Of a stretch of DNA of 64,000 nucleotides, positions 11,991 through 63,230 are shown in pieces; positions within the stretch are counted from its first letter, which is position 1, and each line of letters begins with the position of its first letter. This DNA is from Tachypleus tridentatus (taxonomy: Eukaryota; Arthropoda; Merostomata; Xiphosura; Limulidae): the NCBI RefSeq assembly GCF_004210375.1, contig NC_134834.1, positions 153,593,290 through 153,657,289 of the forward strand. Reading direction: 5' to 3'. The notes under the pieces are model-generated. The model was not told the DNA's origin and did no database searches. It saw only the letters and a list, made by a program, of their open reading frames with translations. The translations under genes were made by a program, and so were the position numbers.

Positions 11991-12785
11991 ACCAGAGGGA
12001 AGGCAACTGGATAGAAAACAAGTAGTAGCAGTTTACAACGCCAACAGGTGGAAGTGCCAATCATGTTATTCACATAACTTCTTAACTTTTGAATTGTTCG
12101 ATCTACTGAACACTTGGCAACACGCGACCCATAGATTTTTTTTTTTTTTTTTTTACATACATACTTTAAAATTATGAATTTATATGAAAACTGAAATACG
12201 ATGATTTTGAATTTCACCTGTGAACTGGAGGGATTTTACAAACCCACGCAGTGCGAGTGCGATTTTCTTTTATGTGAAAGACAAATGTTTTCCAACAACG
12301 TCACTGTAATTTCACTTTTTCATTCTCTAATGTTAATGTATTTACGACACTTCAGTTAAGTTTATATATATAGTGAAAAATATGTGCAAATGATCATACT
12401 TATTTGCCTTATTGTGGTATGTTAATGAACAAGAAGGAATTCTCAGTAGCCACGGCACTTAAATTTCTTGTATACTGGATTACACTAAATTTGTTTATGT
12501 GACCTCCCCCATTATTTATATTTTTTTGTGCGTCAACAATACCAAGCTTGTACCTAAATCGATTTTATTACTGATAAAGATCTCTACTGGTCTATCCTTA
12601 AATTAAAATTCTTTTAGTCAGAATTAGAGTAAATTAATCTAAAAGAGTTTGGGCTTGGTCAAAAACATCAATCGAAATGGTTTAATCTCTTGAATCCAAA
12701 ACTTTAATTAGATCTCAAATCGATCAAGAGATGACAAACCTTAAAAGTTTGTACTTAAAAAGACAGCACATCTATGATCCGTTAT
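11991..12785. other. Non-coding stretch
   Basis: AT-rich, with a poly-T run at about 12138-12154. No gene or named repeat recognised. Confidence 0.5.
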
Positions 12786-13045
12786 ACCGGGCACTCGACT
12801 TGTAATCTGATGGTCGCGGGTTCGAATTCCCGTCACATCAAACATGCTAGCCCTCTTAGCCGTGGGGGCGTTAAAATGTGACGGTCAATACCACTATTCG
12901 TTGGTAAAAGAGTAGTCCAAAACTTAGCGGTGGGTGGTAATGACTAGCTGCCTTCCCTCTAGTCTCACACTGCTAAATTAGGGACGGCTAGCGCAGATAA
13001 CTCACGTATAGCTTTGCGCGAAATTCAAAACAAACGAAACAAACC
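12786..13045 (+). mobile_element. SINE-A copy, well preserved
   Basis: Head CCGGGCACTCGACTTGTAAT lacks the first part of box A. Box B GGTTCGAATTCC is nearly perfect. The body and the tail CTTTGCGCGAAATTCAAAAC with an AAAC-rich end follow. The GCGCA (12991-12995) and TGCGC (13015-13019) arms can form the 3' hairpin shared with the LINE family. Confidence 0.9.
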
Positions 13046-13130
13046 GTCATACCGCGGCTATAAATATGAAGAATTTCTTCTAGACTAAGTGTAATGTGAT
13101 CCCATTTTTTGGAGTCCAAATAGGGACGCT

Positions 13131-13254
13131 TCCTAGTGGCACAGCGGTAAGTCCGCGGAATTAATATGCTAGAAACCGGGTTTCGGTATCTGTGGTGGGC
13201 AGAGCGCAGATAGTCCATTCTGTAGCTCTGCGCTCAATTTCAAAGAAACAAACC
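13131..13254 (+). mobile_element. Short tRNA-derived SINE, C type (best copy)
   Basis: Head CCTAGTGGCACAGCGGTAAG resembles a tRNA box A. The middle is CTAGAAACCGGGTTTCGG, then GTGGTGGGCAGAGCGCAGAT and an A-rich tail. The 3' part contains a perfect 9-bp inverted repeat, GAGCGCAGA (13202-13210) and TCTGCGCTC (13227-13235), with a 16-nt loop. It lies 85 bp after a SINE-A copy in the same orientation. Confidence 0.75.
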
Positions 13255-13879
13255 AAAATTGGACACCTAATTGATGAATAAAAAATGAGTTGCATTAAAA
13301 AATTAAAACTTCTTTACATAAAAAATGCATAGCATCTTATTACCATGCTTTTCATCAGATATTATTTTCTTTAATAAATCAGGAGTGCATTTTGGAAACA
13401 TTTAATAGAAAATAATGATATTCATGAAAAATATATACAATCTAATCATCACAATTCTTATTTGAGGGCATGTTCTTAAACAGTCTGAGAATTTTAAGGG
13501 GCATGTTGCAGTAGAAACAATTGATAAAGTTGTCAGTAATATACAATAAACGACCATACTTAATGCAGTTGTAATTAACCTAGACATGATAATTAATTAA
13601 GAAAATTTTCTGAAAAAAATACATGTTCTTTAACATATTAATATAATGATTTTTCTATAAATGAAATGTTACAGTAACAGCTCTATATAAGCTGATATAA
13701 GCTGCAAACATTTGAGACATAATAAAGTTGAAACTAAATCGTCAAAGATGTTTTGGACATTCAACGCGTATCCCGAAATAAAGCAGACTAATTTAATAAA
13801 TAAATTGCATTATTATACGAAAGTGTTTTTAGAACAACATATATTATTTGATGTTCAGTCAAATAGTGGTATTGAATAT
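13255..13879. other. Non-coding stretch
   Basis: AT-rich sequence with no recognisable gene or repeat. Confidence 0.5.
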
Positions 13880-14965: not shown

Positions 14966-15126
14966 CAACCGTATGGGCGTTATAATGTAACGATCAATCC
15001 CACTATTCGTTGGTAAGAGGGTAGACCAAGAGTTGGCGGTAGATGGTAACGACTAGCTTAAACTGCTTAACTAAGGACGGCTAGCGCAGACAGCCCTCGT
15101 AGCTTTACGCGAAATACAAACCAAAC
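14966..15126 (+). mobile_element. SINE-A fragment: body and tail half only
   Basis: CCAACCGTATGGGCGTTATA through the conserved body to CTTTACGCGAAATACAAACC. The tRNA head is missing, and a short internal block near 15058 is deleted. Confidence 0.85.
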
Positions 15127-21430: not shown

Positions 21431-21559
21431 CTGAAAGAGTACTCTTCTCTGTTCAATTGACCAAATTTGACATACATAAATCAAATGTTACAAACATTTG
21501 TATCTTAGTCATGTGATTTGATGGGGTCTGAGTGCAAAACAAAATTTTTGTCCATATTG

Positions 21560-24500
21560 GTTGGTTGGTTTGGTGTTTTATGGCGCAACTAGGCTATCTG
21601 CCACAAACAAGTAAAATTCATAAAAGGAAATTAAGATAAAGCTAAGGTTTTAATTTCTGAATTAAAACAAAAGTTGAGTTACTGCTATTTATCTAATTTA
21701 CAGCAGTAAAAGAGAAACTACAGTAATACAATTTGCAAAGGACTTTCTATGACTTGAGTGTTTGCACAGACAACACATTGGTGCATCAGTCCATGACTGG
21801 AAGAATGGCACAGCATTTCATAGTGTACATCATCAGGTCTAACTGATAAAGGGCCAGTTTGAGTTCCACCAGTGTAAAGGGATGATTATAGTCATACACT
21901 CAGCTCGAAAGGAAAAAGGTGATTGCTCTGCCCGAGTCTCGATGGCTAAGGAAGTGGAGGACTATGCAGAAGTACTAGCAAAAGCTTTTGCCTAGGGTAT
22001 CAGTAATTTCCTGGCCATCAGAGAGCAAGATCAAGAAGGGGACAGAATTATATTACCTACTGCCTTTTTGATTCTTGTCCCATATGACTTTCAAACTGGT
22101 GGTACAAGATATGGTGGTTGTGAACGTAATTCAAGAGTCCTTTTAGCTTTCAATTCTTACCCACTAAGCATGTACACAGACTTGCTGGAAAATAATGCAA
22201 TGTGAGAGTATGGGATTCCTATGAAAAGTATCTCCAGGGCCATTTTTGAGCCTTCCATACCCTGTGGCAGGCAGGATTCCTCCATGGATGAGGATATTGT
22301 GGAAAACTTCAAAGTTTTAGGAATGCAGTCAGTTCCTGCTGCCACACAGTCATATATTGATGGCAGGATCAAGCTCTGAGAAAACAGTGAAAAAGGGCCA
22401 CTTTGCTTGATTCAGATTCCACTGGGGCATGCAAGTTTGGTGGCACTGACCATGGCAAGTATCTCAAAATTATAGGAAAATGATCACTGTCTCATGGATT
22501 GTCAACTCTCCATGAAAAGTGGGAGAATAGTGAAGGAGAGCAAACTGAGAGATCAATAGCACTAAAGGACACACTAGGTGCATGAAAATAAGTATAAGAA
22601 CCACTACTGAAAAGAGAAAGGATGTGATAAGAGAGCATACACTCTACAGAACAACCCCTCCCATCAATATCAGCACTTCCAACAAAGGGGATGATGTCCA
22701 TTAAACTCCCACCAGGATTAAAAAAGAGAGTACAAATGTTAAATGAAAGCATAGGTCTCTCCAGATGACAGGTGAAGAGAAACAGCAATGGTAAGACCCA
22801 AAGAAATACAGATGGTTACAGTTTCCAAGGGTGGGCTACATGCTGATCAACAAACAGTGCCATCCCTCCATGCCTTCGTCTGTCACATAGCCTGTCATTT
22901 CTGTACCAAGAAAACTGCCGAAAGGTGACTATGTCGGCAGGTTTCGGGAATGTTTCCTATAAGGAAATATGTACAGGATGGTAGAAAGCAATCAGTGCCT
23001 TTGTTATCCAGATTAAAACATAACCCTTGACAGTTCCATTGTATCAAGGTGCCCATTTTTATTTTTGTGTAGGCAAATTGGGTGAAGAACCCTTCTAGTT
23101 ATGATCATGTTTTTATCTTTATTTGAGGGAGGTCTGTTGACCTTAATGGATCCTGCCCTGGGTCAGTTGGGCAGGTCTTTGCTGTTGGAAGAGGATTCCA
23201 GTGACTGAGGACATGAACAAATGATAGTTTTGCATCTTGAGGTGGAAGATGTACCAGAGGAAATGCCTGTATCCATAACCAAAGAAAGGGGATCTTTGGG
23301 TTTGCTGGAATGTATGTTAGGTACAGAGATGGGTGGTGAAATTCATCTTTTTTAACCATGGAGGTCAAAAGACTTCGTTTGGTTTGAAAATGATTCTTTT
23401 GGAGGTACAGAGAGATCCCATCTGCACTCCTGCTGTAGTAATTGAAGGAAATGCAGCAGAATATGTCTGATATGAAGTGGTGGACAACTTTTGAGACTCA
23501 AGTTAAGTAATGTTTTGAATCATTTTAAAATACTGCACCTCTTTTACTTCCAACTATTTGGGGCAAGAACAAAAGTAGTATGGGTGAGAGTCATTGCAAT
23601 TAATGCAATGAGGGTCCGTTTCACACTTTTATGCATCATGGTCCTTGCCACCACAACAAGCACACGTCAAGGAACCACAGCATGACGTCTTCGAGTGACC
23701 GAACTGCTGACATGGGAAACATTTGAGAGCGTTTGGAACCAATGGCCGTACCTTGCAATTAAAATAACCTACCTTGATGGGGGCAGGTGGACGTGATGTA
23801 AATGTCGGAATGAGAACATTGGTTGGCATCATAATTCCTATATTTGTAAGTGGAGATACGCATCACTACAGAAACTCCTTGGGTGGAGAAACCAGCAAGA
23901 ATCTGACTCGGATGTTCTTCAAATCCCACTCAATAACTCTTTGTGACAAATTCAAAGTAGCATGAGGTGTTACCTCGATAGGTATATCCCCAATTGCTTT
24001 TGAATGCAAAAGGAGTTTACTGTGGTGAGATGTGGATGTTTTCACCAATATGTCACCTGAGTGAAGCTTCTTTACTGACTTTGGAGAGCCAGCAAGTTCC
24101 TCTTGTCCTTGCTGAACAAAAAAGGGAGACATCTGTCCTGCAGGTTTGTCTGAAAGAATATGTAATATAAGAAAATGAGGTACAGATGTTGAAGATTGCT
24201 GCTAGAAATCTTCAAGATGTGGTCATTTACCTATGGACTGTTTTTTCACTATTTTAAGTTTTTATTGGGAATATCCATAATAATAAAATTTGGTGCCCAT
24301 TGCCCCTACCCACCATGGAGCCCTAGGAAGGGATGCACTACAATGTCAAACAAGGACACTGCAACACCACCAGGGTTTCATGAGTACTATACCCAAACAC
24401 CAGCATCAGATACAATATCCACAACACCTGTTGAGAACATCCAATACTGGTACTTGGTTGACCCTAGTCTAAGTGGACTAGCCAACTGACTGAAGGGGAG

Positions 24501-28600: not shown

Positions 28601-31600
28601 GCTTTCAGCTGAAAAATTAATGAACATGGATATTACACATCTGAAACCAAACTATTTTTTCACAGGATTGTTACTTTCTAAAGATACAGTACCTTGCCCT
28701 TAGAAAATTAATCTGCATAAATTTTCACAGTTTAATACCATTTACTATGGAAATAATTTTATTAAAGATGTATTGATTTGGTGAGGTTAAACACTGCTGG
28801 TAATGTAGGTCAGTATTAACTCAAAACATAAAACAATATTGACAACATTCCACAGATTATGATGGTTAGAGATGCTTCTTCAAAGGAGGCACATAACTGG
28901 CAAAATGAAAGTGCTCAAAAGAATAACTGATCAAAACTTAAGCAAAAACCCACTTTTCCAATCACAAATAAATCAGGTGGAACTTTAAGCTTTGAAACAT
29001 TTTCTTTTCTAGTATAAACCAAACTTAATGTTTTTGAAAATGATATCATTAAGAACAAAGCATGAACAAAAGTAATAGGTAATCCCAACCACAGATGCCC
29101 TTTTCATTGAGTGTGTATAGGCTCAGTCTGGCATACTAAGTCTATTGAAGTAATATTGAATATAATTCCAAAATTACCATCTGTATCATCAATAAATGTG
29201 GCAAGTACAAAGCTGTTGTATGTAAATAATCAGATGTGTTAATGAAATGTGTTCAAGATGTGCCTGAACTGATGACGTTAGTCTTACTCAGACTCTAAGA
29301 AGTTAAAGTACAAGGTGACATTCAAATCTGTATCAATATAATAGTACTGTTTGTTGTATGTCCAAGTATCTACTTTGTGGGGCATGAACGGATCTTCAAA
29401 CCTGGTATGAAGGTTTAGTGAGTCCATTGGGATATACATAAAAAATTTCAGTTTTGCAGTTTTTATGGACATCTTTGCATTTTATTCCATGACCTCACCT
29501 CCTGTAGATGGAACTTCACCAAATTTGGCAAGAAGATTTGTTAAGTTAGTGAGAAGACAAGCAAATTTGCAGCTTCATATTTTGCATTGTGCAATTGTTA
29601 TAAGGACTTTTTACATTTTGTACAATTAAATATACAGGAAGTGACAATATAACATTTCACTAATCATGAATTTGCATATGTTCCATCCAGGGTATGGGTA
29701 CTCCAGCTAGAATGAAGAAGAAACATTTTTGTTCATTGTACAGTCTGAACATTGTAGTTACATAACTTCTAGAACTTCTGGAATGCATATCAACAGATTT
29801 TTTTTCCATACCTCTCATATTTCTCTCTTCTATCATGAAGTGTCTAAAATAACAATGTAGGGTTAAATGAATAGTTGATAACTTGCATCAAACACCATAC
29901 TGAATGGCACTTCAAAAAAAGGCAGAATGCACACCTATACACCCATCCGTGCATACAGGGTTAACATACAATACAGCTGTGTTCAAATTTTAAGAATGGT
30001 TAAATTAAAAATATATTAAGCACACACGATTTTATAAACATATATCAGATGCTACTTTTATGTGAAATTGTGCACACATTACTCAAAACTTTCTATTTGT
30101 GCACAGAGCATGTAATTTATTTTTCAGCATAAAAATCTCACCTGGACATAACAGCAGGAGTTTTTACAATTCACATTTAAAATCATTGTTATTCAAAGCT
30201 CTTTGTTTTCTCTTTGGGTTTTAGTTGCATATTTGACAACAGTATGTACAGACAATCAGCTGGATATTGATGAGACCAGTTGTAAGACAGATAAAACTGT
30301 GATGGTTGATTTAGTGTTTTATGGCACAAAGCAGCTAGACTATCTGTGCCAAACATCTGGTAAAAAGTTAAAATTAAATTTAGTAAAATTCATGAAAGGA
30401 AATTAAGGCAAAAATAGCATAAAACCAATGTTTACATCTAGACTACAATGTGAAGAGAAACACTACAGTAATACAAGCTGTAAAGGACTTTCTGTAGCAT
30501 AATTGTAATTATCATAACTCACCAGAAAGATTAACAGGTAAGTACAAAAACCACCACCAGTCATCTGAAGTTGACCTTTCCAGTACTGGTTCCAAGTTAT
30601 TTGATGTTATGGTCATTTTCAAAAAGTAAAGTTTTAAAAGACTTGTAGCAATATTTTAATAACTTGCCAGGATGACTAACGGGTAGTTCAAACAACAAGC
30701 AGCATTAGTCACCTGAAGTTGGCCTATCCAGTCTTGGTTTCAAGTTATTTGATGTTATGGCCATTTTCTAATTTCAAATTGAACAAGATGGACATCAATT
30801 CTTAAAAGGGAATCACATCACAAAAAGTCTAATGTTATCATAAATTAAACAAACTTAAATACCATTAACAAGATTAATTGCTTTTAAAAAAACTGAAAAA
30901 ATTTCCAAGATGGATAGTGTCACTATCATCAATAACACTAACGTTATGAATAAACCTTTGGACAGAACATGTTAAAAATGATGCTGTCATAATGACAGCA
31001 AGAAAGTAAAATGTGGCTTATTGTGACCTGAGTGTCACACAGACTACACACTGGTGCATAAGTTCCAGATAAAAGAAAACAGTGAGTTACAAAACTGTGA
31101 CCAATGAGTATTCTAATTAGGACAACTTTATCTTTCGATAATTATGGAAGCAAGGTGGCCAAAGTCCAATATAGGGTTTTATTTAGAAAAGCTTGTTTTC
31201 ATGTTGCTCACTCCAAGTTGACTGCCAGCTGGCACGGAGCCGAGCCTTGAATACAGGACCATAGTCCATGTATAGAACAGGCACAGCAGTGATAGTGCAA
31301 GAGCAGATAGATTTTACTGCAGCATCAGTGAGCTTGTTCCTGTAAATACCAATGTGGTCCAGGATCCAGAAAAAACTGGATAGAAGTAGATGTTAAAGAG
31401 AAATGGGCCAGATGGTTTTGAATATCAGCAAAAACTAAAGTGAAGCAATTCCAGGGCCAGCAGAGAACTAAGCAAGTCACTACAAATAGTGCAGTCTGAG
31501 TACTGCTTAGCATCTATGTGATCCAGGGCAAGAGAAATGGCATACAGTTCAGCAGTGAACACAAAAGCTGAAGAGGGGATTCTGCATGCAACCACCAAAC

Positions 31601-34600
31601 CATGGCAGAGCCCACACAGTCACCTGATTTTGAACCATCTGTATAAATAGGAATGGAAGGATGGTTCAAAAGATGTTCAGCAAATAATAGACACAATTTC
31701 TAATCAGGAGTGCCTCTTTTTCTCAGATGACTTAAAGATAGGTCACATATGGGGACTGTAAGAAGCCATGGTAGGATAAGCTGACCAGTGGATACAGCAA
31801 TGTTATACAAGGACAGACCCAATTCATCCAATTGCTCCTGGACATGGAGGCCGAAAGGAGCAATGGCAGACCATCTGTTCTGAAAAGGTATGGCTCACTG
31901 AGGAGGAAGGAAAACACAACCTCAGGTGGGATGCTTCAGTAAGAAACGAAATTTCGAAGCATATAGTAAAGACAGTTGTAAATGATGGAGGTGTGAAGAA
32001 GGTTCACGGGACTACATATATGCTCTGAACTGGGGAAGTGTGAAAAGTCCAGAGCCGAAGTCCTTGATGATGAATGGTGTCCAGCATCATTGAGGCTGAG
32101 AGTCTGGCAGAGCCATAGACCAGTGATCCATGGTTGAGTTTCGACTGAATAACAGCACAATATATCTTTAGCAAAGAACATCAATCCGATCCCCAAGTGG
32201 TGGAGGAGAGGACATGGACAATGTTCATTGTTCTTGTACATTTGACATAGCTGCTTGATGTGGGGTATAAAGGTCAGCTTATGGTCAAAGATAAGTAAGC
32301 CCCAAGAACTTTGTCTCAGGGGCCACAGATAGCAAAACTTCACCAATATGGAGTTCAGGATCAGGGGGAATACCACATTGGCAGCTAAAGTGCATGCAAA
32401 CTGTTTAAAAGAGAACGAAGTTAAAGCCATTTGCTGTGCTCCACTTCAGTATACGACTGAGGGCAATCTGTAGCTGCTGCTCAATATACCTCATGTTGGA
32501 CAACTAACATGAGATGTGAAAGTCATCGACATAGAGCCCCTTTGCAACAGTAAGGAGTTCTTCAGTGATGGCATTAATTTTTACACTGAAAAGTATGACA
32601 CTCAAAACACAGCCATGAGGAACTCCAAATTCCTGTAGAAACGAATGGGAAAGTGTTGAACCCACATGAACTTGGAATCTCCTGTTCAATAAAAATATTT
32701 TACTAAGAATGGGCAAATGGCCACGTAACCAATATACATATGGAGGGCTCACAAAATGCCATACCTCCATGTTGTACCATAAGCCTTCTCAATGTCAAAG
32801 AAAACTGATACAAGATGTTGTCATTTGAGAAAGGCTTCTCTGATTAATGTTTCAAGTCAAATCCGGTGGTCTGTGGAGGAGTGCTGTCCACGGAACCCAC
32901 ACTGGGTGGGCGAGAGGAGGTTGTTTGATTGAAGAAACCAAACAAGACGAGCATTAACCATCCTCTCTGAGGTCTTACAGAGACAGCTCATCAAAGCAAT
33001 TGGATGGTAGTTTGAAGGAATCTTGGGATCCTTTCCAGGCTTCGAGAAATGTAAGGCAACAGACTGGCACCAGGCATTAGGAGAAACATTCTCCTGTCAG
33101 AACCAGTTAAAAACAATCAGAAGAATAGCAAGAGAAGCAGGAGATAGAAGGCACAATATTTTATAGCATACATAATCAGTTTTGACTGATGTACTACCAG
33201 ACTAATGAAGGACCAGTTTGAGTTCCACCAGTGTAAAAGGACGATTATAGTCATAGAGACACTCAGCTCGAAATGAAAGAGGTGATTGCTCGGCCGAGTC
33301 CTGATGGCTAAGAAAGTGGACGAAGAATCGGTAGTTATAGGTATGCAGCAAAAGCTTTCACCTAGAGTATCGGTGATGCTCCAGGTATCAGCTACATCAT
33401 GGCCATCAGAGAGCAAGATCAAGAAGGGCACAGAATTATATTGCTGACTAACCTTTTGAATCGTGTCCATATGACTTTAGAACAGGTGGTAGAAGATGTG
33501 CTGGTTGTGAACTTAATCAAAGATTCCTTCTGGCTTTGACATCTTACCCTCCGAGCACGTGCAAATTGGAAAGCGATGTGGTTCAAGACTGTGGGATATC
33601 TATGGAAAGTAACTCAGGCACATTTTTGAGCCTTCCGTGCCAGGTGGCAGGCAGGATTCCACCACGGTCTAGGTTTTAGGAATACATTGAGCAGTTGCTT
33701 GCATAATACAGTCAGTTACTGCAGCCACACAGTCATCTATTGATAGCTTACAGATGATGGTAGGATCAAGTTCTGTGAGAGCAGTGAAAGAGGGCCAGTT
33801 GGCATGATCCAGCTTCCACTGGGGCACATGGGTTAGGTGGCATCAACCACGGCCAGTCTCTCTCAAAATTATAGGAAAATGATCACTGCCTCATGGATTA
33901 TTGTCAACCCACCATGAAAAATGGGAGAATAATGAAGGGAAGCAAATTGAGAGATCAATAGCAGTAAAAGATTAACAAAGTGCACAAAAAAAGTATAAGA
34001 ACCAGTATTGAAAAGAGAAAGGTTGTGATCAGACAGTAGATGCTCTACAGAGCGACCCCTCATATCAACATCAGCACTTCCCAAGAGGGTATAATGTCCA
34101 TTAAATTCCCCCAGGATTAAAAAGGGAGACAGCAACTGTTCAATGAAAGCATCAAGGTTTAATTGATCATATGTCTCCCCAGAAAACAGGTACAGAGAAC
34201 AAACAGTGATGGTATGACCCATGGAAACATACATGGATATGGTCTCCAAGGGTGTGTTGGGTGAGTACCTGCTGAACAACCAACAGTTTTACACCTCCAT
34301 GCACTCATCCATCACACAGCCAGTCATTTTTGTACAAAGAAAACCACCAAAAGGTTTCAGAAATATTTCCTGTAAGGAAAAATATACAGGATGGAAGGAA
34401 GCAATCAATGCTTTGATGTCATCCAGATTAGAACATAAACCTCAACAGTTCCATTGTATCAAGATGGCCATTTTATTTACATGTAGGTGAATTGCGTGGA
34501 GAACCCTTCTGTTTATGACCAAGTCCTTTTTCTTTGTCTTTATTCAAGGAAGATTTATTCACCTCCATGGATCCTGCCCCAGGTCGACTGGGAAGGTCTA

Positions 34601-37600
34601 TGCTGTTGGAAGAGGATTCCAGCAAATGAGGATATGAACAAATGATCATTTTGCATTGTGGAGTTGGAGAAGATGTATCCAAGGAAATGCCTGTACCCAA
34701 AACCAAAGGAAGGGGATCTTGGGATTTGTTGAAATGAGTGTTAGGAACAAAGATGGGTGTTGACGTTTATTCATCAACTTTTTTAACCATTAAGGTCAAA
34801 AGGCTTTTCGTTTGTTTTGAGAATGATTCTTTTGGAGGCACAGAGAGATCTGCCTGCACTCCCACTGTAACAGTGGAATGAAGTGCAGCAGCATATATCT
34901 GAGATAAAGTGGTGGACAGCAACTTTTAAGCCTCAAGATAAGTAATGTTTTGAATCATTTTCAAATGCTGCACCTCTTTTTCTTTCAACCATTTAGGACA
35001 AGAACAAAAGTAGGATGGATGAGAGCCATTGCAATTAATGCAATGAGGGTCCGTTTCACACTTGTAGGCATCGTGGTCCTTGCCACCACAATGAGCACAT
35101 GTCAGGTAACCATGACATGATGTCTTTGAGTGCCCGAACCTCTGACACTGGAAACATCGGAGAGGGTTTGGAATGTAGGCCGTATCTTGCAATTTAGATA
35201 ACCTGCCTTGGTGGTGGCAGGTGCAGGTGGTGATGTAAATGTCAAAATGAGGATATTCGTTGATACTGTAACTACATCTTTGCAAGAGGAGATGCACCTC
35301 ACTGCAGAAACTCCTTGAGTGGAGAGACCAGCGAGAATCTCCGACTCGGGGACGTTCTTCAAATCCCTCTCAAAAATAACTCCTCGTGATGAATTCAAGG
35401 TAGCATGAGGGGTAATCTCAATAGGTACATCCCCAATAGCCTTTGAATTCAAGAGGAGTTCACTGTGTTGGGATGTGGATGTTTCAACCAATGTCTCCAG
35501 ATCAAAGCTTCTTTACTAACTTTGGAGAGCCAGGAAGTCCCTCCAGTCCCCAGCAGTTTTCTGAATAAAAAAGGGGGGCATTTGCCCTGAAGGTTTTTTT
35601 TGAAAGAATGTAGGATGAGAAAATGAGGTACAACTGGTGGTACAGACGTTGAAGATTGCTGATCAGTCTTCAAGATGTGGTTGTTTATCTATTGACTGTT
35701 TTTTCACTATTTTATTTAAATTTTTTGTAGGAGGATCCATAGGAAAAAAAAGAAAATTTTGGTGCCCACTGACCCCATCCACCATGGAGCCTTATACCCA
35801 AAAACACCAGCATCAGGCACAATGTCCACAACACCCCCGAGAACTTCCAACACTGCTACTTGGTTGACTCTAGCCCAAGTGGAACAGCCGATTGACCCAA
35901 GGGGGGCCACCCAAAGGCTGCCTGTTTACAGGAATTCAAGGCCAAAGTGGTGTGTTAGGGTTGAACCCCTCAACCACCAGGATCATCTCCTCCCCTTCAC
36001 GGGTCACCACGCATGGCAAACACATTGGTGGATGTTTAGATTCCAGAGGAAGTAACCAGAAAGAACAGAACCTTCCCTGGGAAGCCCCCTCACAACGTCC
36101 AGGAATCCACACCGAGGGGGGGGAAGGAAAACCAAATAATCTAAAGAAGGAAATCACTTAATATGAAGAGAGAAATCATAAGACACAGGAGAAAGTTGAA
36201 AAATACTGAAATCTGAGTAATTAACTGTAAGAATGACACTGAAGATTGAACATCCTCCATTGTTCTCTGAAAAAAAAGCATAATATACAAAAAAGTAAGA
36301 AAAACTTAGTCAAATTCATTCTCCTTATGCCCCTTATCAGCTCATGCTGCTACATATGAAGAAGATAAACCACGTCCCATTTAGAATGCTAACTCCAACT
36401 AAAGTAAAGCTTGCACATCCAAGACTCATAGATATAGGTCTTGAGTAATAAAGTTAAACGTGTCTTCAAACAAAGCAGGAGCCAACATAGTAGACAGTAT
36501 ATTTTGAGTTCCTAATTGGCAAAAAAAGTGCAAGAAGTACATGTAATAAACTTTAAATAAACAGTAAGCAAAGTAAGTGAAAATATACATTAATGTGGAA
36601 AGAAAGCAGTAAATTTTCACATGAGAAATCAAGAGCAAGAGGGTGTCACAGGCACTCTGTTTGCTAAATTAACAGTGCAAACTGAGAAACATAAAAAAGG
36701 CTAATACATTAGGCAATAATCAAGATTTTTAATGTTTTAGAAGGCATTCCAAGATTGAGAAAAGCATTATACATGACAGAAGGTACATACTGTGTCAAAT
36801 TTATATTTTAATAGTGTATATACTTATCAATGCTGGATTAACTGTGTACCAAGGATTGGTCCATTTGACAGAGCCTAATTCCAAATTTACTTCCTTTTAT
36901 TAAACATTAAAAACATATGCTGCAAACCAAAAAGAAAAAAATTTAATAAAGTATTTCTACTAATGATTTACCTGAGAACCTACTGTGTCAATCAAGAAAA
37001 GAGAATTTTGTGAAAGGAATAAATATTCATATTTTTCCATTTCGTATTTTATTTGCACAACTTCTAGCATCTCTCAAAATAATACTAAATTTTTGTTGAA
37101 AATTATTGTATATTTTATCTGTAAATTTCTCTACACAAACATCATACTTGATTCTAAGGTATTTATAAATGTAATTTAAGTATAATGAAAAGAAAGATTG
37201 AAAAACATGGGAAAAATTGAATAACAGTTATTTCCTTTCAAGTACTGACTGTAAAGTAACAAATTACTTATATTCACAGTTTAAGCTTTTATTCTTTCAT
37301 TAAACATGTTTTGTATTTTGTTACTAGTTTTTCATATGGAACACTAATCCCCTTGGAAAATAAAATAATACATCACAGTACCAACCATTTTTAGTGTCCA
37401 GCAAACTAGCATTTTGTATCAGTCGCAAGCAAATTCATGTAAAGCTTTTAGTTAAATCTTACTAAAGCAGCAAGCTAGAGAAACATTTGCATTATAGCTT
37501 TGTAATATTTATAGTATACTGAATTTATACCAAACCAAGAAAATCAAAGAACAGATGGAAAAAATGGGTCAGCACAGATGCATCACATGATATAGAGAGG

Positions 37601-40600
37601 CAAATAATGAAATATTTTAAAAAGGAAATGTTTAATGAGAAACTAAACTTGTATAGTATGAAATTTAAAATCATAAACTATGTTTTGATGCTACGTTCAT
37701 TGACGTACAATCATGATAAAGGTTTGGAAAATGTTCTGAGATATGCACTTTGCAAATGAGTAGAACAAGAAATTTATAATTATGTGGTTAAACTAGTCAT
37801 CAAACTACAAATAAAATTAAAAAAACTTAGTTATTTCATACAAACCTATAAAACAGAGGGCTAAGTATACTATATTAAAACAACTTAGAATATCCAAATT
37901 GGCAAGTCATAAGGCAAGCACAGCTGGTATAATGTCAGTGATTATATTGGAAATGTATTTTAACAGGGTGTACCACCAAAAACTTGATCACTTTTGAAAG
38001 GATATGAAACAGCTCTTATTGATTTAAAATATTCATACTTTCAGATAAAAGAAAGTGTTCATATAGAATTTAAGAGGGAGATACCTCTGATACTTAATGA
38101 CGTTGAAAAATAGAGGAATTTGGATCAACATGGAGAAACACTAATGTGTAGAAAGAGACCTACAAACAAGTTGTACCCCATCCATAGTAAGAAAATTGTA
38201 GAATCTGGTAAAAAGGTAAAAAATCTATGGAGATAAAATTTAGTGACAAGTTCTCACACCATCTAAAGAAAGTATCACAAGTCACATGTACACATGTTGC
38301 TTCCATGACATGTCTGTTTGACCATTGCTTACCTTAAGCAGTTCCCTCATACACTAGGTAGATAATGGAAGCCTACAGTATGAAATGGTGAGCTTTGTAT
38401 ATAACTATGACCACACTACAGGCCAGTCCTATTATTAAGATGCATAACAGAAAGATAGAACATACTTGAATGTAATAACATGGACTGTAACAACTTACTA
38501 ACTCTCTAGTATATTTAATGTAATATACTGAACCTTTGTATAATGCAAATATATTGGTGAATTTGAATTCTTTAGTTCTTAATATATCAAAATAGTGCAA
38601 TACCCACCTCTGGCAGTCTAAACACAACAAACTCATACAGGCTGGGCAATTTAAGACTGCATCACTATTTGGAAGAGGCACAACTTTTTCTGAAGAAGTT
38701 TGAAACTTTGGAAATATATATGATCGACGTTTATCTTCAACCCACTTCTCATCATCTTCATCCATTTTAGGATTATAAAGAAGGTCATCATTAGACGGTT
38801 CTGTAGCTTTTGCTTGTCCTAAATTATAGTACAAACCTTTAACTCTGCAAAGTGAATTATTTAGTTCAGTTTAATTTCTTTATATTTTTGCACATCTTAA
38901 AGACAAACAAAAAAGAATAAGCCCATTTGGTGAGAATAACCCAATAAAGTTACAGAGAAAAAATGGATTTTGGTATTTTGGATGACCAGTTTCTAAAGCC
39001 ATCCAAGCAGTGTGTTGTTCCTAGTGATAAATTAAATAGGATTTTGGGTTGAATTTGTAAAAATATTGAATATAAGTCTGAAGAGAAATATATATGTAAA
39101 AATGGCTTGTTTCTACTGAATGATGAAAAATGGAAACCAGATTCAAAGAACATAAAAAGTCACCTTAACATGTTTTTGAACACTGCCAGTCAAATAAACA
39201 CAACATAACCACAGAAAACACTCAAATACTAAATAAACAAATGCAAAATCAAAGAAGCTTTACTTATAACAACTCAAGCCCAAATAAACCAATACAAAGG
39301 AACACCTTTATACCTATATTAAAAATAATAATAATAAAATAAATATATAAAATGGTATATTCAAACATCTAAGCACACCCTCTACATTCCGACACTCAGT
39401 TATACAACCCCTTTCAAACATGTGGTCAAGCTTCTGGTCAGTTATCTTTTCCTTTCTTTGTGAACCTGACAATGACCAAAAAAGGTCAAAATGTTGTTCA
39501 CTCTTCTACGTTAAAAATTTTCTCAACCCAAATGAACCATTTTTACATATATATCTCTCTACAAGTGGGTTTTCTTGACATCACTTCAAACTTCAGACTA
39601 TGTTCAGTTTTGGGATCCATACCTTACGAAAGACACTGAATTGTAGAGTTATAATTTTTCAATATTGAATGTGCATTTCCGATAGATACTTATCTCCATT
39701 TTGCATGAAAAGACATTGTTGTTCAGTGCTGCCCTCTATGCAAAAATATTTTCATATACCACAAGCCTTGAACTCTTATATATCCTTAGATCAATGTGGT
39801 TCAACTGCATGCAAATCATCATGTGAAGACCCTCCACCAACAGGAATGTAACACACCCTCCTGATAAATGTGACATCCTCTACTCAATTTTACCACACTA
39901 TCACTTCAAATATTTTTGCAGAAAATGGTTTTTCAGTGGGGAGGTATGGCTGATTGGTTGTTTAGTGTTTATTGGACTATCTGCACCATACAGCTGGTAA
40001 AAAGGAATATCAGTAAAATATGTAAAAAGAAATCATGCTAAAACAGAACATTATCCAATTTTTGGGTTAAAATCTTCAAGTTAAAAAAACCAATAGCCCT
40101 TAAAAATTTAAAAACACAACTGAGGTGGACATTATCACCCTCACCAATGACACTGACCAATATCAAGAGTGAACCCAGCACAAAAATATGTTCAAAATGG
40201 TGCTTTGGCTCTTGATCATAATGATGGCATGACAGTAATATGTGTGCTATTGTGATTTGAGTGCCACACAGATCACAAACTGGTGCATCAGTGCCAGAAA
40301 AAAGAAAGTGGTGAGTTACAAAACTGTGAACAATGCATAGCCTAGCCAGGACAAGTTCCTCCTTCAAATCTTTACAGAAACAAGATGGCCAAAGAGCAAT
40401 AGAAGGTTTGATTTGGAAAAGCTTATTATCATGTTGCTCACTTCTAGTTGACTGCCAACTGGCATGAAGCTAAGCCTAGAATACAGGATCATAGTTCATG
40501 TATGGGATAGGCATAGCTGTGATACTACCAGAGCAGATTGAGTTAGCAGTGATGTTGGGGAGCTTCTTCCTGCAAATACCAACACAATATGATATCCTGA

Positions 40601-43600: not shown

Positions 43601-46600
43601 ATTCCTATACAAGGAAAACTGTCTAAGGGAGACTGTATCAGCAGATTTCAGAAATGTTTCCTGTAAGGAGAGACATACGAGGTGGTAAGAATGAATCAAA
43701 TACTTGATGTCATCTTTATTTGATCAAAAACCTTGACAGTTCCACTGGATCAGAGTGACCATTTTTATTTACATGGAAAAGATTGTGGCAGGGAGACTTC
43801 CTATTTGCAACCATGTTTTATTATTATTATTATTATTGGGCAAAGACCTAACACCCTCCATGGACCCTGCCCTAGGTCAAGTAGGCAGGTCTCTGTCAGT
43901 GGACAAAGATTCAAATGACAGAGGGTGTGAACAAAAGATTGATTTACTTCTTGGGGCTGTAGAAGAGAATGGACCCAAGAAAACACCTGAACCTAAAAGA
44001 AGTGGAACTAGGTAGTCACTGGAAAGAGTGGTAGGGACACAGATGGCAGTAGACATTGATGCATCAACTTTTATAATTATGAAGGGCACAAGATTCAAAA
44101 GATGTTTTGCAAATGACTCTGTTGGAGCCACAGAAAGATCTCTCTGCACTCCCACTCTGGTACTGGAATGGAGTGCAGCAGCATATATCTGAGATAGGGT
44201 TGGGAGCAATAATGTCTGAGCCTCTGAGCAGGTGATATTATTAACAGTCTTCAAGCATTGCACCTCTTTTTCTCCTACCCATTTAGGGCAAGAAATAGAG
44301 TAAAAGGGGTGTGGGCCACTACAGTTAAAACAGCATGGTTCCAAGTTACACTTGCAAGCTTCATGGTCTTTACCACCACAATGAGCACATATCAAAGAAC
44401 TATGACAATGTTTTTGAGTGACCAAACTGCTAATACTCAAAATATCTAAGAGGGTTAGGAATGTAAGGCCATACCTTACAGTTCAGATAATTGATTGATT
44501 GATTGATTTAGTGTTTTATGGCACAAAGCAGCTAGGCTATCTGCGCCAAACGTCCAGTAAAAAGGTGAAAATAAAGTAAATATAGTAAAATACATAAAAG
44601 GAAATGAAGGTAAAACAAAACATCATTTAAAAACATAAATAGCATAAAACCAATGGTGACATCCAGTATACAATGTTAAGAAAGAAACTACAGGAAGAGA
44701 AGTTGTAAAGGACATTCTCTAGAAAAATGGTAATGATCATAACCCGTCAGGAAGACTAACAGGTAAGTTCAAGAACCACCGTCAGTCACCTGAAGTTGGC
44801 CTTTCCAGTCCTGGTTTTGGGTTGTGTGTCATAGCAGCCATTATCAAAATGTACAATAATAGAAGTTTTAAAAAACACATAGCAAAATCGTAATAATGAG
44901 TAACCAAATGTCCAGTAAAAAGTTTCAAGTCAAGTAAATGGACTAAAATTTGTAAAAGTAAATGAAGGTAAAAAAAACAGCAATTAAAACAGAAAATGTG
45001 ATAAAACCAATGTTGACATCCAGTCTACAAAGTTGTAAAGGACTTCCTGTAGCAGAATGGTAATGATCATAACCCGCCAGGAAGACTAACAGGTATGTAT
45101 AAGAATCATCGTCAGTCACCTGAAGTTGGTCTTTCCAGTCTTGGTTCCGGGTTATGTGTCATTATGGCCAGAACTAAAAGGTAAAGTAGTAAAAGTGTTA
45201 AATGACATGCAGCAAAAGTGTAATAACAACTCGCCAGGACAACTAACGAGTAGTTCAAACGAATAGTTCAAACAGCAGCATTAGTCACCTGAAGTTGGCC
45301 TCTCCAGTCCTGGTGTCGAGTTATTTAATGTTCTGGCCATTTTCCAATGTCAAATTGAACTCGAGAGAATGAAACTGTAAAAAAGAAACCATAATTAAAA
45401 AGGTGTAATGAATAAATGTGCAACACTTCAATGAGATTAAAAAGATTAATGACCATTAAAAAAATAAAAACTTTATCAAGGTGGACAGTGTCACCATCAC
45501 CAATAACACTGTCCAAAGTTACAGATAAACCTTGGGAAAAAACATGTTTAAAATATTGCCGTCGTTGAGAATTGTAACGATGGCAAGATAGTAAAATGTG
45601 GCTGATAGTGATTTGAGTGTTACACAAACTACACATCGGTGCATCAGTTCCAGATAAAATAAAACAATGAGTTAAAAAACTGTGACTAATGCATAGCCTA
45701 GTTAGAACAACTTCCTCCTTCCGAACTTTATGGAAGCTAGATAGCCAAAGCCTAATATAGGGTTTTATTTGAAAAAGCTTCTTCTTGCGTTTCTCATTCC
45801 AAGTGGACTGCCAGCTGGCACGAAGCCAAGCCTTGAATACAAGACCATGGCCCATGTACGGAATAGGCACAGTGGTGATAGTGCTAGAGCAGATAAATTT
45901 AGCTGCCGTGTCTGCAAGCTCGTTCCCTCAAATACCAACATGGCCTGGTATCCAGAAAAACTGGATAGAAGTAGTAGTTAATGAAAAATGGGTTAGTCAG
46001 TTTTTGAATATCAGCGAGAACAGGGTGTGAGCCAACGTGTAGCAATTCCAGGGCCAGTATAGAACTAAGCAAGTTAGTATAAATAGTGCAGTTAGAGTAC
46101 TGCTCAGCTGCAATATGATCCAGGGCAAGAGATATGGCATACAGTTCAGCAATGATCACAGAAGCTAGAGAGCAGCAAACCATAGCAGAGCCCACTGAAT
46201 TACCTGATTTAGAACCATTTGTATAAATAGGAATGGAATGATTGTTTGAAAGATGTTCATTAAATAAAAGATGATACTTCCAATCTGGAGTATCTGCCTT
46301 TTTCAGATGACTGAAAGGAAGGTCATATTTGGGGGCTGTAATAAGCCATGGTGGGATAGGCTGACCTGTGGATTCTGCAATGTTATCCAAGGACAGACCC
46401 AATTCATCCAATTGCGCTCGGATGCGAAGGCCAAACGGAGCAATGGCAGATCGTGTGTTTTGAAAAAGTATGGCCCATCGAAAAAGGAAAACACATCCCC
46501 AGGTGGGATGCTATGTTAAGGAACGAAGTTTCGAAGAATATTGTAAAGATAGTTGCAAACAGCGAAGGTGCAGAGAAGGTTCATGAGATTCAACATATAA

Positions 46601-49600
46601 GCTTTGAACTGGAGAGGTACGGAAAGCCCCAGTGCAGAGTCGAAGTCCTTGGTGATGAATGGGGTCCAGCATCTTTAAGGCCAAGGGTCTGGCAGAGCCA
46701 TAGACCATTGATCCATAATCGAGTTTCGATCTAATAAGAGCAAGATATACCTTTAAGATTGAACAGCGATCTGCCCCCCAACTGGTAGAAGAGAGAACAC
46801 GGAGGATGTTCAGTGCTCTTGTGCATTTGACCCGAAGCTGCTTTAAGTGTGGTATAAAGGTCAGTTTATGATCAAAGATAAGCCTCAAGAACTTGGTCTC
46901 TGGAACCACTGGCAGCAAAACTTCACCGATATGAAGTTCAGGATCAGGGTGAATACCCTGTCGACGGCAAAAGTGCATGCATACAGTTTTGGAGAGAGAG
47001 AAATTAAAGCCGTTCGCCAGAGTCTACTTCTGTACACAATTGAGGGCGGTTTGTAGTTGCCGCTCAATATATCTCATGTTTGATGACTGACATGAGATGT
47101 GAAAGTCGTCGACATACAGCCCATTCGCAACAGTGAGAGGGAGTTGTTCAGTGATGGTATTTATGTTTATACTGAAAAGTGTGACACTCAATACACAGCC
47201 TTGAGGGTTCCAAGTTCCTGTACAAAAGAACGGGAAAGTGTCGAACCCACACGAACCTGGAATCTCCTGTCCATTAAAAAAATTTTAATAAACATGGGTA
47301 GATGGCCATGTAACCCATATGTATGGAGGTCTCATAAAACGCCATACCTCCATGTTGTGTCGTAAGCCTTCTCTATGTCAAAGAATATTGATACAAGATG
47401 TTGGCGGTTGAGAAATGCTTCTCTGATAGATGTTTCAAGACGAATTAGGTGGTCTGTGGTGGAGTGCTGTCAACGGAACCCACACTGGGTGGCGAGAGGA
47501 GGTTGTTTGATTCAAGGAACCAAACAAGACGAGCATTAACCATCCTTTCTAAGGTCTTACAGAGACAGCTCGTCAAAGCAATTGGACGGTAGTTTGAAGG
47601 AATCTTGGGATCTTTCCCTGGCTTAGAGAAAGGTAAAATGATAGCCTGGCCCAGGCATCAGGAAAAACATTCTCCTGCCAGATCCGGTTGAAAACAATCA
47701 GAAGGACATCTAGAGAAGCAGGAGATAGATGGTGCAGCATGTAATAATGAATATCATCAGGTCCAACAGACGTACTGGCAGACTGATGAAGGGCCATTTT
47801 TAGTTCCACCAGGGTAAAAGGACAATTATAGTCAAAGAAACAGTCAGTTCGAAAGGAAAGAGGTGATCGCTCTGCCCGAGTCTTGATGGCCAGGAAGGTG
47901 GAGGAACAAGCAGAAGTGCTAGATACCCGGCAAAAGCTTTCACCTAGAATGTTAGCGATGTTCCGAACATCAGTCACCTCCTGACCATCAGAGAGTAAGA
48001 TCGAGAGGGGGATAGAATTGAAGTGTCCATTAACCTTTCGAATCCTGTTCCATATGATCTTGGAACTGGTGGTAGAAGATATGCTGGTTGTGAACTTAAT
48101 CCAAGATTCCTTCTGGCTGTGACGTCTTACCCACCTAGCATGTGCACGGGCCCGTTGGAAAGCAACTCGGTTTGAAAGTGTGGGATATCTACGAAAAGTA
48201 TCCCAGGCCTGCTTTTGAGCCTTTCGTGCTAAGTGGCAAGCAGGATTCCACCACGGACGAGGATATCGTGGAAAACGTGTCGAGGTTTTAGGAATACACT
48301 GAGCAGCTGCATGTGTAATACAGTCAGTTACCGCTGCTACACAGTCGTCTATTGGTGGCTGATTTACGATGGCAGGATCAAGTTCTGTGAGAGCAGTGAA
48401 AGTGGACCAGTCTGCCTGATCCAGCTTCCACCGGGGCACGCGGGTAGGGTGGCATTGACCACGGCCAGTCTCTCTCAAAAGGATTGGAAAATGATCACTG
48501 CCTAGTGGATTACTGTCAACCCTCCATGAAAAATGGGAGAATAATGAAGGGGAGCAAACTGAGAGATCAATAGCGGTCAAGGACTGACTAGGTGCATGAA
48601 AGTAAGTGGAAGAACCAGTATTGAAAAGAGAAAAATTGTGATCAGAGAGCATCCGCTCTACAGATCGCCCCTCCCATCAATAATAGCACTTCCCAGAGGG
48701 GATGATGTCCATTAAAATCCCCTAGGATTAGAAATGGAGATGGCAATTGTTCAACGAGAGCATCAAGATCTGATTGATCATATGTCTTTCCAGGGGACAG
48801 GTACAGAGAACAAACAGTGATGGTATGACCCAAGGAAACACAGATGGCTACAGCCTCCAAGGGTGTGTTGAGTGACAAAGACAGGGTGGGCACGTGTTGA
48901 TCAACCAACAGTGCCACCCCTCCATGTACTCGATCATCACACAACCTGTCATTTCTGTACAGAGAAAACTGCTGAATGGAGACAGTATCAGCAGTTTTGA
49001 GAAATGTTTCTTGTAAAGAAAGACAAACAGGATGGTAGGAAGCAATCAGCGTTTTGATATCATCCAGATTAGAACGTAAACCTCGACAGTTCCATTGTAT
49101 CAAGGTGGCCATTTTTAAGAACGGGTAGGTGAAGTGGCTGGAGAACCCTTCGGTTTACGACCACGTCTTTTTTCTTTACTGTCTTTAGTCGGAGAAGGTC
49201 TATCAACCTCCATGGATCCTGCTCTGGATCGGGTGGGCAGGTTTTTGTTATTGGAAGGGGAATCCAGTGACTGAGGACGCGAACGAATAATTGTTTTGTC
49301 TCTTGTGGTGGGAGAAAAAGATGTATCAGAAGAAACGCCTGTATTTGAAACTGAAGGACGTGGATCTTGAGGTTTGTTGGAAGGTATGGGAGGAACAGAG
49401 ATGGGTGTGGAAGTCAATTCATCAACTTTTTTAACCACGGAGGTCAAAGGGCTTTTCATTTGTTTTGAAAACGATTCTCTTGGAGTCAGAGATTGTCTGC
49501 ACTCCCACTGTAGTTGTGGAATGAAGTGCAGCAGCATATGTCCAAGATGGAGTTGTGGACAGCAATTTCCGAGCCTCAGGATAACTAATGTTATGTGTCG

Positions 49601-52600
49601 TTTTCAAACGCTGCACCTCTTTTTCCTCCAACCATTTTGGGCAAGAATGAAAGTAAGAGGGGTGAGAACCATTGCAGTTTATGCAATGTGGGTTCATGTC
49701 ACAGTCATAGGCATCGTGGTCCTTGCCTCCACAACGAGCACATGTCAGGGAACCACGACAGGATGTCTTTGAGTGGCCGAATCTCTGACATTGGAAACAT
49801 TGAAGAGGGTTTGGTATGTATGGCTGAACCCTGCAAATGAGATAACCTGCCTTGATGGTGGCAGGTGCATGTGGTGAAGTAAATGCTAAAACGAGGGTAT
49901 TTGTTGGCAGTGTAACTCCATCTTTGCGAGTGGAGATGCGCCTCACTGCAGAAACTCCTTGAGTGGAGAGACCAGCGAGAATCTCTGACTCGGGAACGTT
50001 CTTCAAATCCCTTTCAACAATAACTCCTCATGAAGAATTCAAGGTAGCATGGGGTGTAGCCTCAATAGGTATATCCCCAATTGCCTTTGAATTCAAGAGA
50101 AGTTCACTGTGTTGGGATGTGGATGTTTCAACCAATATGTCACCAGATCGAAGTTTCTTTACTAATTTTGGAGAGCCAGCAAGTCCCTCTAGTCCCTTTT
50201 GAATAAAAAAAGGGGACATTTGCCCTAAAGGTTTTTCCGAAAGAGAATGTAATATAAGAAAATGAGGTACGTGTGTTACTGATGTTGAAGATTGCTGTTC
50301 TGAGTATTCAAGACGTGGTCGCTTACCCATTGACTGTTTTTTTACAATTTTATTTAAATTTTTTAGAGGATCCATAGGAAAAAGAAAAAATTTCGGTACC
50401 CACTGACCCCACCCACCATGGAGCCCTACAAGGGGACGCACTACAAAGTCACGCAAGGACAATGCAGCAACGCCAGGGTATCGTGAGCACTATACCCAAA
50501 CACCAGCATCAGGCACAATGTCCACAACACCCGTTGAGAACTTCCAACACTGGTACTTGGTTGACTCTAGCCCAAGTGGACCAGCCAATTGACCCAAGAA
50601 GGGCCACCCAAAGGCCGCCCATCTACATGAATTCAAGGCCAAAGAGGTGTGTTAGGGTTGGACTCCTCAACCACCAGGATCCTCTCCTCCCCTTCACAGG
50701 TTGCCATGCATGGCAAACACATGGGTGGATGTTTAGATCCCAGAGGAGGTAAACTGAAAGAACAAAACCTCTGGGAGGTCCCCTCACCATGTATACAGGA
50801 ATCCACACCTAAGAGTGGGTTATGGTGGAAAGGGTGAGGAGATGCAAGTACCTATCGGAAATATATTTTAAATATAGGGAAATTATAATTTCCAATATGG
50901 TGCATTACCTCCTTCCATAGGTGAAGGGACACATTCAAGGGAAAGAAAGAAGCATCCTCTGAAAGCATCCAATGGACACCCTATAAAGCAGATTTTCACA
51001 GTAGAGGAAATAAATGGGAGACAGCACCATTTCTGTACCAGGTACACTCTTCACCCAGTGTGGAAAGAGGTGTGATATGGACACAAGTGGAAATTGGAAG
51101 AGAATAAAGGTTGGTCAGGGAATATGAACTATACAATATTGGAACTTCAATCCCAGAGAGTACATAAATGTGGGTGAGAGTAAAAGAATGTACTTCTACA
51201 TGTAGCATAGCTATGTTGCAGTGTAAGATTTACAGCCACTGTAAATCAACATCCATATAGGGGTATGAAAGAGGATCATACAAGTAACAAGCCAAAACCA
51301 ATCCAAAACCTAGCCATCTGGTGGGGGATAGGAAAGAGCATCATGCCATCTTCACCTCAAGTTCAGCAGACTGGAGAAAAATCCTGTATCCTCCCCAAAC
51401 TACTAATAGGACACATGATATCATTGTGATAAAATATTTGACTAATCAGCATAGTAAAAAGCCTTTTTAATGTAAGCTATCATACTTTAAACCAATCTGA
51501 CAGGAGCTGCAACCAACAAAATCATATCCTAAGAAAAAGATATTCATCAAGGGATAGAGTAAAAGGAAGAACCATATTAATGTTCCACCAACATGAACCA
51601 TAAGATGGGTGAAGAGATGTTCTTGCATTATGATGTGTATGCAAGATACAGTGGAACCACATTGATATTAGGAGTATGAGGGAGCTCAAGGCTTGTGATA
51701 TGCAAAGCAAACTGTGCTCATACAAGGCAACACTGAATGAAAATACCAATTTATGTGATTAGAGGTAATGTATCAAATTGTAAGTGTTCAATGGAGAACT
51801 GCTAGAGTGAAACCCGAGATGTAAGATTGTCAAACATGTTAAGGTCTGTAAACATGTTTGTTTGTTGTTAATAAAGAACGAAGAGATAAAATAAAGCTGA
51901 ATGAGGTGATCAAGATTTTTAAGGGCATTGATAATACTAATATTACACTTATCATATTTAATAGTAAGAATAGTAGATAAAAAAAGCAAAAATAATTTTT
52001 GACAGTTCAAGAGTTATTTTCAGCTTCAATGCTTACTTTTAAAGCAATGTTGCTGGCCTATCGAATGGATTACCTTCATGTGGAGGATGCAGTACATTTA
52101 AAAGAAGTTAAGGAAAGGCTCAATAAATAGTTAAAATGAAAAGAAAGAGCTAAAAAAACAATGTTAGTTTTGAACTAATAAGATGAAATGCAGAATGCTT
52201 TGTTTTTAACCTAGCAAACAAAACAAACATCTAGTTATTGTAACATGTGTGCCCATTGGCTCAATAATTATACTAAGACTCACATCTGACATCCCAAACC
52301 CATAAACATAATTGTTATAGTATATTTTTCTAATTTTGTAACTATGATTATTACAGTTCTAATAATAAATTAAACATTCAGAAATTGAGAAATATATAGA
52401 TAAAGTAACTGTACTGTATATACACAAATAAATAACCACACATTTAACCCTTTTGTTATGGGCCACTGATTAAAGACAATGTCATTGCATTTCTCGACTT
52501 GCACTCAAAATGTTACTGAACTACTATTTTATGAATTTACATCAATACGTTTGAAATCAAATTTTAAATTATAATTCAAACTTTAATATTATATATGAGT

Positions 52601-58114: not shown

Positions 58115-58384
58115 GGCCTGACATGGCCAGGTGGGTTAAGGCACTCGACTCATAATTTGAGATCGCGGGTTCGAATCCCCGTCGCACCCTACATGTTCGC
58201 CGTTTCAGCCGTGGGGGCTTTATAATGTGACAATCAGTTCCATTATTCGTTCGTAAAAGAGTAGCTCAAGAGTTGGCGGTGGGTGGTGATGACTAGCTGC
58301 CTTCCCTCTAGTCTTACACTGCGAAATTAGGGATGGCTAGCGCAAATATTGCTTTGTGCGAAATTCAAAAACCAAACAAACAAA
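58115..58384 (+). mobile_element. SINE-A copy, full length, inserted in the CR1-type LINE
   Basis: Complete from GGCCTGACATGGCCAGGTGG (box A) through box B GGTTCGAATCCCC (perfect) and the body to CTTTGTGCGAAATTCAAAAA and an AAAC-rich tail. It is the best copy of the tRNA-like head in the window. It separates two RT blocks of the host LINE. Confidence 0.95.
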
Positions 58385-58603: not shown

Positions 58604-58875
58604 TGTTTATTTTGAATTTCGCTCAAAGCTAATCGAGAGTTACCTGCGTTAGCCGTCTCTAATTTAGCAGCATAAGACTAGAGGGAAGACAACTAGTCAT
58701 CACCATCCATCGCCAACTCTTGGGCTACTCTTTTACCACCGAATAGTGGGGTTTACCGCTATTCTAGTGGAATTTAACGCCCCCACAGCTGAAAGCATGT
58801 TTGGTTTGACGGGAATTCGAACCTGAGACCCTTGGATTACGAGAGGAGTGCCTTAACCACTTGGGCATGCCGGGC
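58604..58875 (-). mobile_element. SINE-A copy, full length, inserted in the CR1-type LINE
   Basis: On plus from TGTTTATTTTGAATTTCGCT to GGGCATGCCGGGCA. A short extra block near 58765-58780 (CTATTCTAGTGGAATTTAAC) lengthens the body. It lies opposite to the copy 220 bp upstream and also splits the LINE coding region. Confidence 0.92.
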
Positions 58876-63115: not shown

Positions 63116-63230
63116 ATGTGTGTTTCCTTATAGTAAAGCCACATTGGGCTTTCTGCTGAGTCCAGCAAGGGAAATCGAACCACCGACTTCAGCGTTGTAA
63201 ATCTGTAGACTTACCGCTGTACCAGTGGGG
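63116..63230 (-). mobile_element. Short tRNA-derived SINE, B type
   Basis: On plus TGTGTGTTTCCTTATAGTAA, CCACATTGGGCTTTCTGCTG, box B complement GAAATCGAACC, then GCGTTGTAAATCTGTAGACT and TACCGCTGTACCAGTGG. Well preserved. Confidence 0.75.

Follow-up and report, generated by a model that had tools for sequence, protein, structure and literature searches.

A 3' hairpin shared by an RNase-H-bearing LINE and three tRNA-type SINE families of Tachypleus tridentatus suggests a LINE-SINE partnership

A near full-length LINE (LINE D) in a 64,000-nt stretch of Tachypleus tridentatus DNA (NC_134834.1, positions 153,593,290 to 153,657,289; hereafter the window) raises the question of whether its group drives the SINE families that surround it, as a preliminary description had proposed. 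The words GATAGCC and GCTTTG, together with compatible stem arms, are common to the 3' end of LINE D and to three tRNA-type SINE families of the window (SINE A, B and C). The LINE features, in window coordinates, are:

44490..50815, minus strand: LINE D, near full length, by self-comparison; 5' end at about 50815, 3' end at 44490, reading frames broken
44520..44547, minus strand: LINE D 3' hairpin, GGCGCAGATAGCCTAGCTGCTTTGTGCC, by sequence reading
44490..44519, minus strand: flank after the LINE D hairpin, ATAAAACACTAAATC, with the (AATC)n end, by sequence reading
30303..36113, minus strand: LINE copy B, grouped with LINE D, by self-comparison and reading
30323..30350, minus strand: LINE copy B 3' hairpin, GGCACAGATAGTCTAGCTGCTTTGTGCC, by sequence reading
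21557..21604, minus strand: LINE fragment A, 3' end, with the hairpin deleted and an (AACC)n end
39952..39987, minus strand: LINE fragment C, 3' end, with half of the hairpin lost

LINE D retains an endonuclease domain (Pfam PF03372, E 1.7e-12) at 48642-49154 and, by direct reading, a CCHC-knuckle ORF1 on the minus strand at 49431-50027, a region that gives no Pfam match. In another member of the group (locus L104), RVT_1 (3.3e-31) and RNase_H (6.2e-13) lie within one 1040-codon frame, which among solved structures is similar to LINE-1 ORF2p and R2 (E 5e-13 and weaker). A single stop lies upstream of this frame, in the endonuclease part, and a TCG-type tail with (AATC)n follows 3' of it at L104 position 4424. 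The I-clade combination of an APE-type endonuclease, reverse transcriptase (RT) and RNase H is present in the group, the endonuclease in the window and the other two domains in L104. Judged from this domain content, the group fits an RNase-H-bearing, I-like kind, and the earlier assignment of LINE D to the I type stands in that broad sense. The LINE D 3' UTR also contains a tandem repeat of approximately 330-360 bp (window 44546-45226) that is present in other copies too.

Read in the RNA sense (minus strand), LINE D ends in GGCGCAGATAGCCTAGCTGCTTTGTGCCATAAAACACTAAATC(AATC)n or, in a longer rendering, GGACGTTTGGCGCAGATAGCCTAGCTGCTTTGTGCCATAAAACACTAAATC(AATC)n. The stem arms quoted previously lie where they had been placed (GGCACA at 44520-44525 and TGCGCC at 44542-44547 in LINE D, GGCACA..TGTGCC at 30323-30350 in copy B), while the strand on which the LINE D end had been read is to be corrected to minus. 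Across the genome searched (2.17 Gb, 205 contigs) the pattern TTTGGCGCAGATAGCC..GCTTTGYGCC has 651 exact matches, with a 5-nt loop in every place among the matches listed. Thirty-three LINE 3' ends were read: 20 were picked from the list for this pattern so as to vary the loop, 7 are near-best BLAST copies, 2 lie in the window and 4 have other origins. Younger copies carry TGTGCC and AATC repeats, and older, more diverged copies carry TGCGCC and AACC-like repeats. The stem pairs in 33/33, a count that is partly built in because the pattern that supplied 20 of the 33 copies holds both arms constant. Folding predictions describe the LINE hairpin as robust and stable: the consensus hairpins reach z values of -3.2 to -4.1 relative to shuffles (0, 5 and 0 of 200 shuffles equally good), and the predicted pair probability is 1.0 with 0, 14 or 40 nt of upstream sequence.

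The SINE copies in the window are:

12780..13045, plus strand: SINE A, tail hairpin words at 12991-13019
4978..5218, minus strand: SINE A, by BLAST/copy comparison
8198..8404, minus strand: SINE A, by BLAST/copy comparison
2804..3051, minus strand: SINE A, by BLAST/copy comparison
58140..58384, plus strand: SINE A, by BLAST/copy comparison
58605..58852, minus strand: SINE A, by BLAST/copy comparison
14969..15126, plus strand: SINE A without the tRNA head, by copy comparison
13125..13256, plus strand: SINE C, stem arms at 13202-13210 and 13227-13235
4531..4656, minus strand: SINE B, tail words at 4551-4577
7730..7833, minus strand: SINE B, relative of the 4531..4656 copy
63117..63225, minus strand: SINE B, relative of the 4531..4656 copy

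The window additionally holds, next to a SINE B copy, a plus-strand motif that resembles the tails (4451-4479), as well as a 31-bp direct-repeat array (10616-11017) and a calmodulin-like exon recognised by eye on the plus strand (20026-20346).

The stem words reported for SINE A (GCGCA at 12991-12995, TGCGC at 13015-13019) and for SINE C (GAGCGCAGA at 13202-13210, TCTGCGCTC at 13227-13235) are found at those positions, and the SINE B pair AGCA..TGCT, previously quoted without coordinates, is located at 4551-4577 on the minus strand. The consensus 3' ends are AGCGCAGATAGCCCTCGTGTAGCTTTGCGCGAAATTC for SINE A (37 copies, from 96 BLAST rows reduced to 50 spanning rows and then by dropping 13 pattern-selected ones), GAGCACAGATAGCCCATTGTGTAGCTTTGTGCTTAATTC for SINE C (13 copies from 24 rows) and CTCAGCAGATAGCCCAATGTGGCTTTGCTATAAGAAAACACAC for SINE B (15 copies from 19 rows, 3 of the 15 being C-type copies left in). 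ARAGORN at a lowered threshold recognises tRNA Ile-AAT in the SINE A consensus and a tRNA in 6/6 copies tested of the A2 type (Thr-CGT in 4, Ser-ACT in 2), identifying a small RNA gene as the source of the SINE A head; in the window itself neither ARAGORN at its default setting nor cmscan reports a tRNA.

The proposal that LINE and SINEs share a 3' hairpin is upheld by their consensus tails, which are homologous beyond chance. Local alignment of the LINE tails (young, TCG and old forms) with the A1, A2, B and C tails gives scores of 22-35, which 0-48 of 10,000 dinucleotide-shuffled LINE tails attain, and the top pair, the old LINE form with A1, scores 35 (0/10,000 shuffles). A separate shuffle run gave 0-25/20,000. 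When windows of LINE D are aligned to the SINE A tail the two 3'-terminal windows are the best of 256 (24, the next being 21), and, of the SINE A segments aligned to the whole of LINE D, those near the SINE's own 3' end score 23-27 versus 17-20 for the others. Jockey-like 3' ends, taken from three LINEs, reach only 14-18 with the SINE tails. Scanning 1.8 kb at each of five additional RT loci (four Jockey-like, and L108, RTE-like by reading) gave top window scores of 19-23, in the range of the weakest LINE-SINE scores; a lone low score is thus no proof. The shared stretch spans approximately 45 nt with indels, and the loops differ; the SINE 3' end qualifies as derived from that of the LINE, without being identical to it. 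The SINE A and SINE C tails score 53 with each other, versus 22-35 for SINE with LINE, and the SINE tails therefore form a lineage of their own. The two sides also lack the common terminal repeat of a partner pair, the LINE ending in AATC or AACC and the SINEs in AAAC or AC.

The further claim that the stems differ in sequence yet stay paired holds for part of the stem. In a hand-made alignment of eight consensus tails, pair 1 of 8 is G-C in the LINE, A-U in SINE B and C, and a broken A-G in SINE A, while pair 4 is G-U, G-C or A-U. Pairs 2, 3 and 5-8 are invariant apart from SINE B, in which two stem columns are gone from both arms. Few stem pairs thus covary (pairs 1 and 4), the SINE B loss is two-sided, and SINE A departs from the rule at pair 1. 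The SINE hairpins fold no better than shuffles (z -0.4 to -1.8). Taken alone, the SINE-A hairpin has a predicted pair probability of 0.90 (A1) or 0.98 (A2), but unlike that of the LINE it drops to at most 0.01 once at least 34 nt of upstream SINE sequence are included, and with 10 nt upstream the outcome hangs on a single 3'-flank nucleotide. We considered a fold switch, in which the A1 tail avoids the LINE-like stem and A2, selected for the hairpin, takes it; this was dropped, since A1 and A2 both form the stem when no upstream sequence is included and neither forms it with at least 34 nt. The haplotype pairs of the SINE-A tail (A-U 71, G-C 19, G-U 8 and A-C 2 among the first 100 matches listed) were likewise rejected as strong covariation, and the p-value of their linkage is not used as evidence of structure, because the linkage mostly reflects subfamily descent and CpG-type changes.

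SINE A2 is a very young subfamily. Median divergence from the own consensus is 2.3% for A2 (8 copies), 13.2% for A1 (29 copies) and 29.1% for SINE C (13 copies). A SINE-A-type tail with three two-letter places has 69,214 exact occurrences; the A2 haplotype makes up 70 of the first 100 of these listed and the A1 haplotype 11. The other 19 include G-A-C (8) and G-A-T (7), potential intermediates on the way from A1 to A2. Provided that the share of A2 in this listing is representative, the subfamily accounts for tens of thousands of exact tails. LINE copies of the TCG type are 91-94% alike and those of the TAGCT type 87-92%; set against the 2.3% of A2, these values indicate that A2 was active about as recently as, or later than, the LINE copies compared. 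The youngest LINEs seen are Jockey-like, mostly 93-98% alike, and lack the tail. Members of this Jockey-like family are followed by a histone-H2B-like reading frame at L039 (C14:8837846) and L040 (C19:13218849), and at L043 and L068 the Jockey-like 3' end continues into an L041-type LINE, neighbours that perhaps reflect a target preference.

Insertion marks are found at the tails themselves. In 30 loci picked for a SINE tail without a SINE in front, 10-12 nt duplications (score at least 8) occur at the hairpin start in 12/30, compared with 22/870 mismatched flank pairs; the 18 loci without duplications include rearranged SINEs. Insertions reduced to hairpin plus tail and flanked by such duplications are what one expects of target-primed reverse transcription that begins at the tail. 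For the LINE, target-site duplications are present in 1/4 shortened copies (L101).

We favor the reading, at a probability of roughly 0.6, that the SINE tails descend from an older member of LINE D's I-like group and that the SINEs are probably mobilised by the RT of that group. This older member would have donated its 3' end to the three tRNA-derived SINE families; the LINE protein would bind the SINE tail, the group's RT would start target-primed reverse transcription there, and a single LINE group would serve all three families. In support of this reading are the similarity of the tails and their position at both 3' ends, the LINE hairpin, the lower Jockey-like scores, the stem changes, the endonuclease, RT and RNase H domains, the marks of target-primed reverse transcription and the roughly compatible timing of A2 and the LINE. 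Weighed against it are the closer likeness of the SINE A and C tails to each other, the lack of an exact SINE tail on any LINE seen, the differing terminal repeats, SINE hairpins within the shuffle range, the Jockey-like identity of the youngest LINEs and chance windows of 19-23. Of the original proposal that this LINE drives the SINE families, the homologous 3' ends and the I-like character stand, while the missing exact tail, the differing repeats and the disfavoured SINE-A fold count against it.

The main competitor, which we regard as unlikely although worth serious weight, is that another, unsampled LINE matching the full tail (8-9 nt loop, AATTC flank, AAAC repeat) drives the SINEs and that the LINE D group is its cousin. 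The SINE tails have approximately 50 nt in common that the LINE is without, and A2 is younger than the LINE copies compared. Direct searches for such an element returned little: a tail pattern asking for a non-SINE start gave 38 matches, of which 30 were read without finding a LINE, and a second gave 11, the 10 read including L072, a LINE of the LINE D group, and the ambiguous locus L075; the other reads are intact, cut-down or rearranged SINEs. A C-type pattern with a non-SINE start gave 0 matches, and searching viral and prokaryote contigs for the tail words likewise gave 0. A biased sample of 334 kb of genomic sequence contains 125 tail motifs, 64 of which belong to SINE A or C and 33 to the LINE D group; among the remaining 28, the pattern searches account for 24, and the last 4 resemble SINE tails that sit at the end of a locus or have a diverged start. 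Across the tail-pattern reads and these 334 kb, the exact SINE-type tail is on no LINE. The protein route leads mainly to Jockey-like LINEs and the LINE D group (6/6 RNase-H loci read, 4 with its tail in reach). It leaves room for an unseen partner, because scoring covered the best 150 of 23,990 RT candidates (PF00078; 35 read) and 150 of 1,019 RNase H candidates (PF00075; 6 read), and few families were read. No better-matching LINE family appears among the 3' ends looked at, neither the Jockey-like ones nor L108 (C2:116220430-116222230), an RTE-like coding remnant whose 3' end is unlike the SINE tails.

That the likeness is convergent or accidental, with two independent origins of a short hairpin built of common words, is very improbable. 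The shared block is indeed short, the SINE hairpins fold no better than their shuffles, and two of the variable stem bases are CpG-type changes, but the shuffle tests and the placement at both 3' ends argue otherwise, as do a GGAYG upstream that is common to LINE and SINEs and the same result in three SINE families. The tail relationship of LINE and SINEs is a true one, most likely reflecting partnership or its heritage. Returning to descent from the I-like group, a fuller version can be offered only tentatively, at somewhat under even odds: one I-like LINE group would have given rise to the tails of three separate tRNA-type SINE families, these would since have evolved along structure-keeping paths (in SINE B the removal of two columns from each arm; in SINE A G-C to G-U to A-U), and some RT would still, or until very recently, read the diverged tail, as A2 shows.

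If the favored reading is true, an I-type LINE serves as partner to several abundant SINE families of a single animal and extends the short list of published I-clade pairs, and the large young A2 subfamily with its intermediates supplies natural variants for the letters and pairs that an I-type RT needs. A literature search found no account of this LINE-SINE pair (a weak negative, as most subscription journals lie outside the search), and the tail words retrieved no title on transposons. The pair looks new as a pair, I-clade partnership having already been published.

UnaSINE1 and UnaL2 form a stringent pair with a recognised 3' hairpin and ends that are close to identical. As here, the two elements share a 3' end with a short terminal repeat; only approximately 45 nt with indels are shared in the present case. 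SINE3 elements are, as the name is used in the field, of 5S type, and SINE3-1_TC of Tribolium, unlike the SINEs here, is not tRNA-derived. In the accessible portion of its source SINE3-1_TC seems to be mobilised by the I clade (PMC7245038), and in this it resembles the SINEs here by description. The accessible portion of a second source (PMC3747384) has CR1 and RTE partners predominating among SINE/LINE pairs, lists UnaSINE1/UnaL2 as such a pair, and in its Table 1 places the Gecko SINE with the I-clade LINEs I-74_AAe/MosquI of Aedes aegypti. With Gecko and SINE3-1_TC in print, the suggestion that an I-type partner would in itself be notable was too strong. Gecko, as that portion presents it, is a close parallel by description: like the SINEs here it is tRNA-derived with a 3' tail assigned to an I-clade LINE, and it differs in being one SINE where three SINE families are found here.
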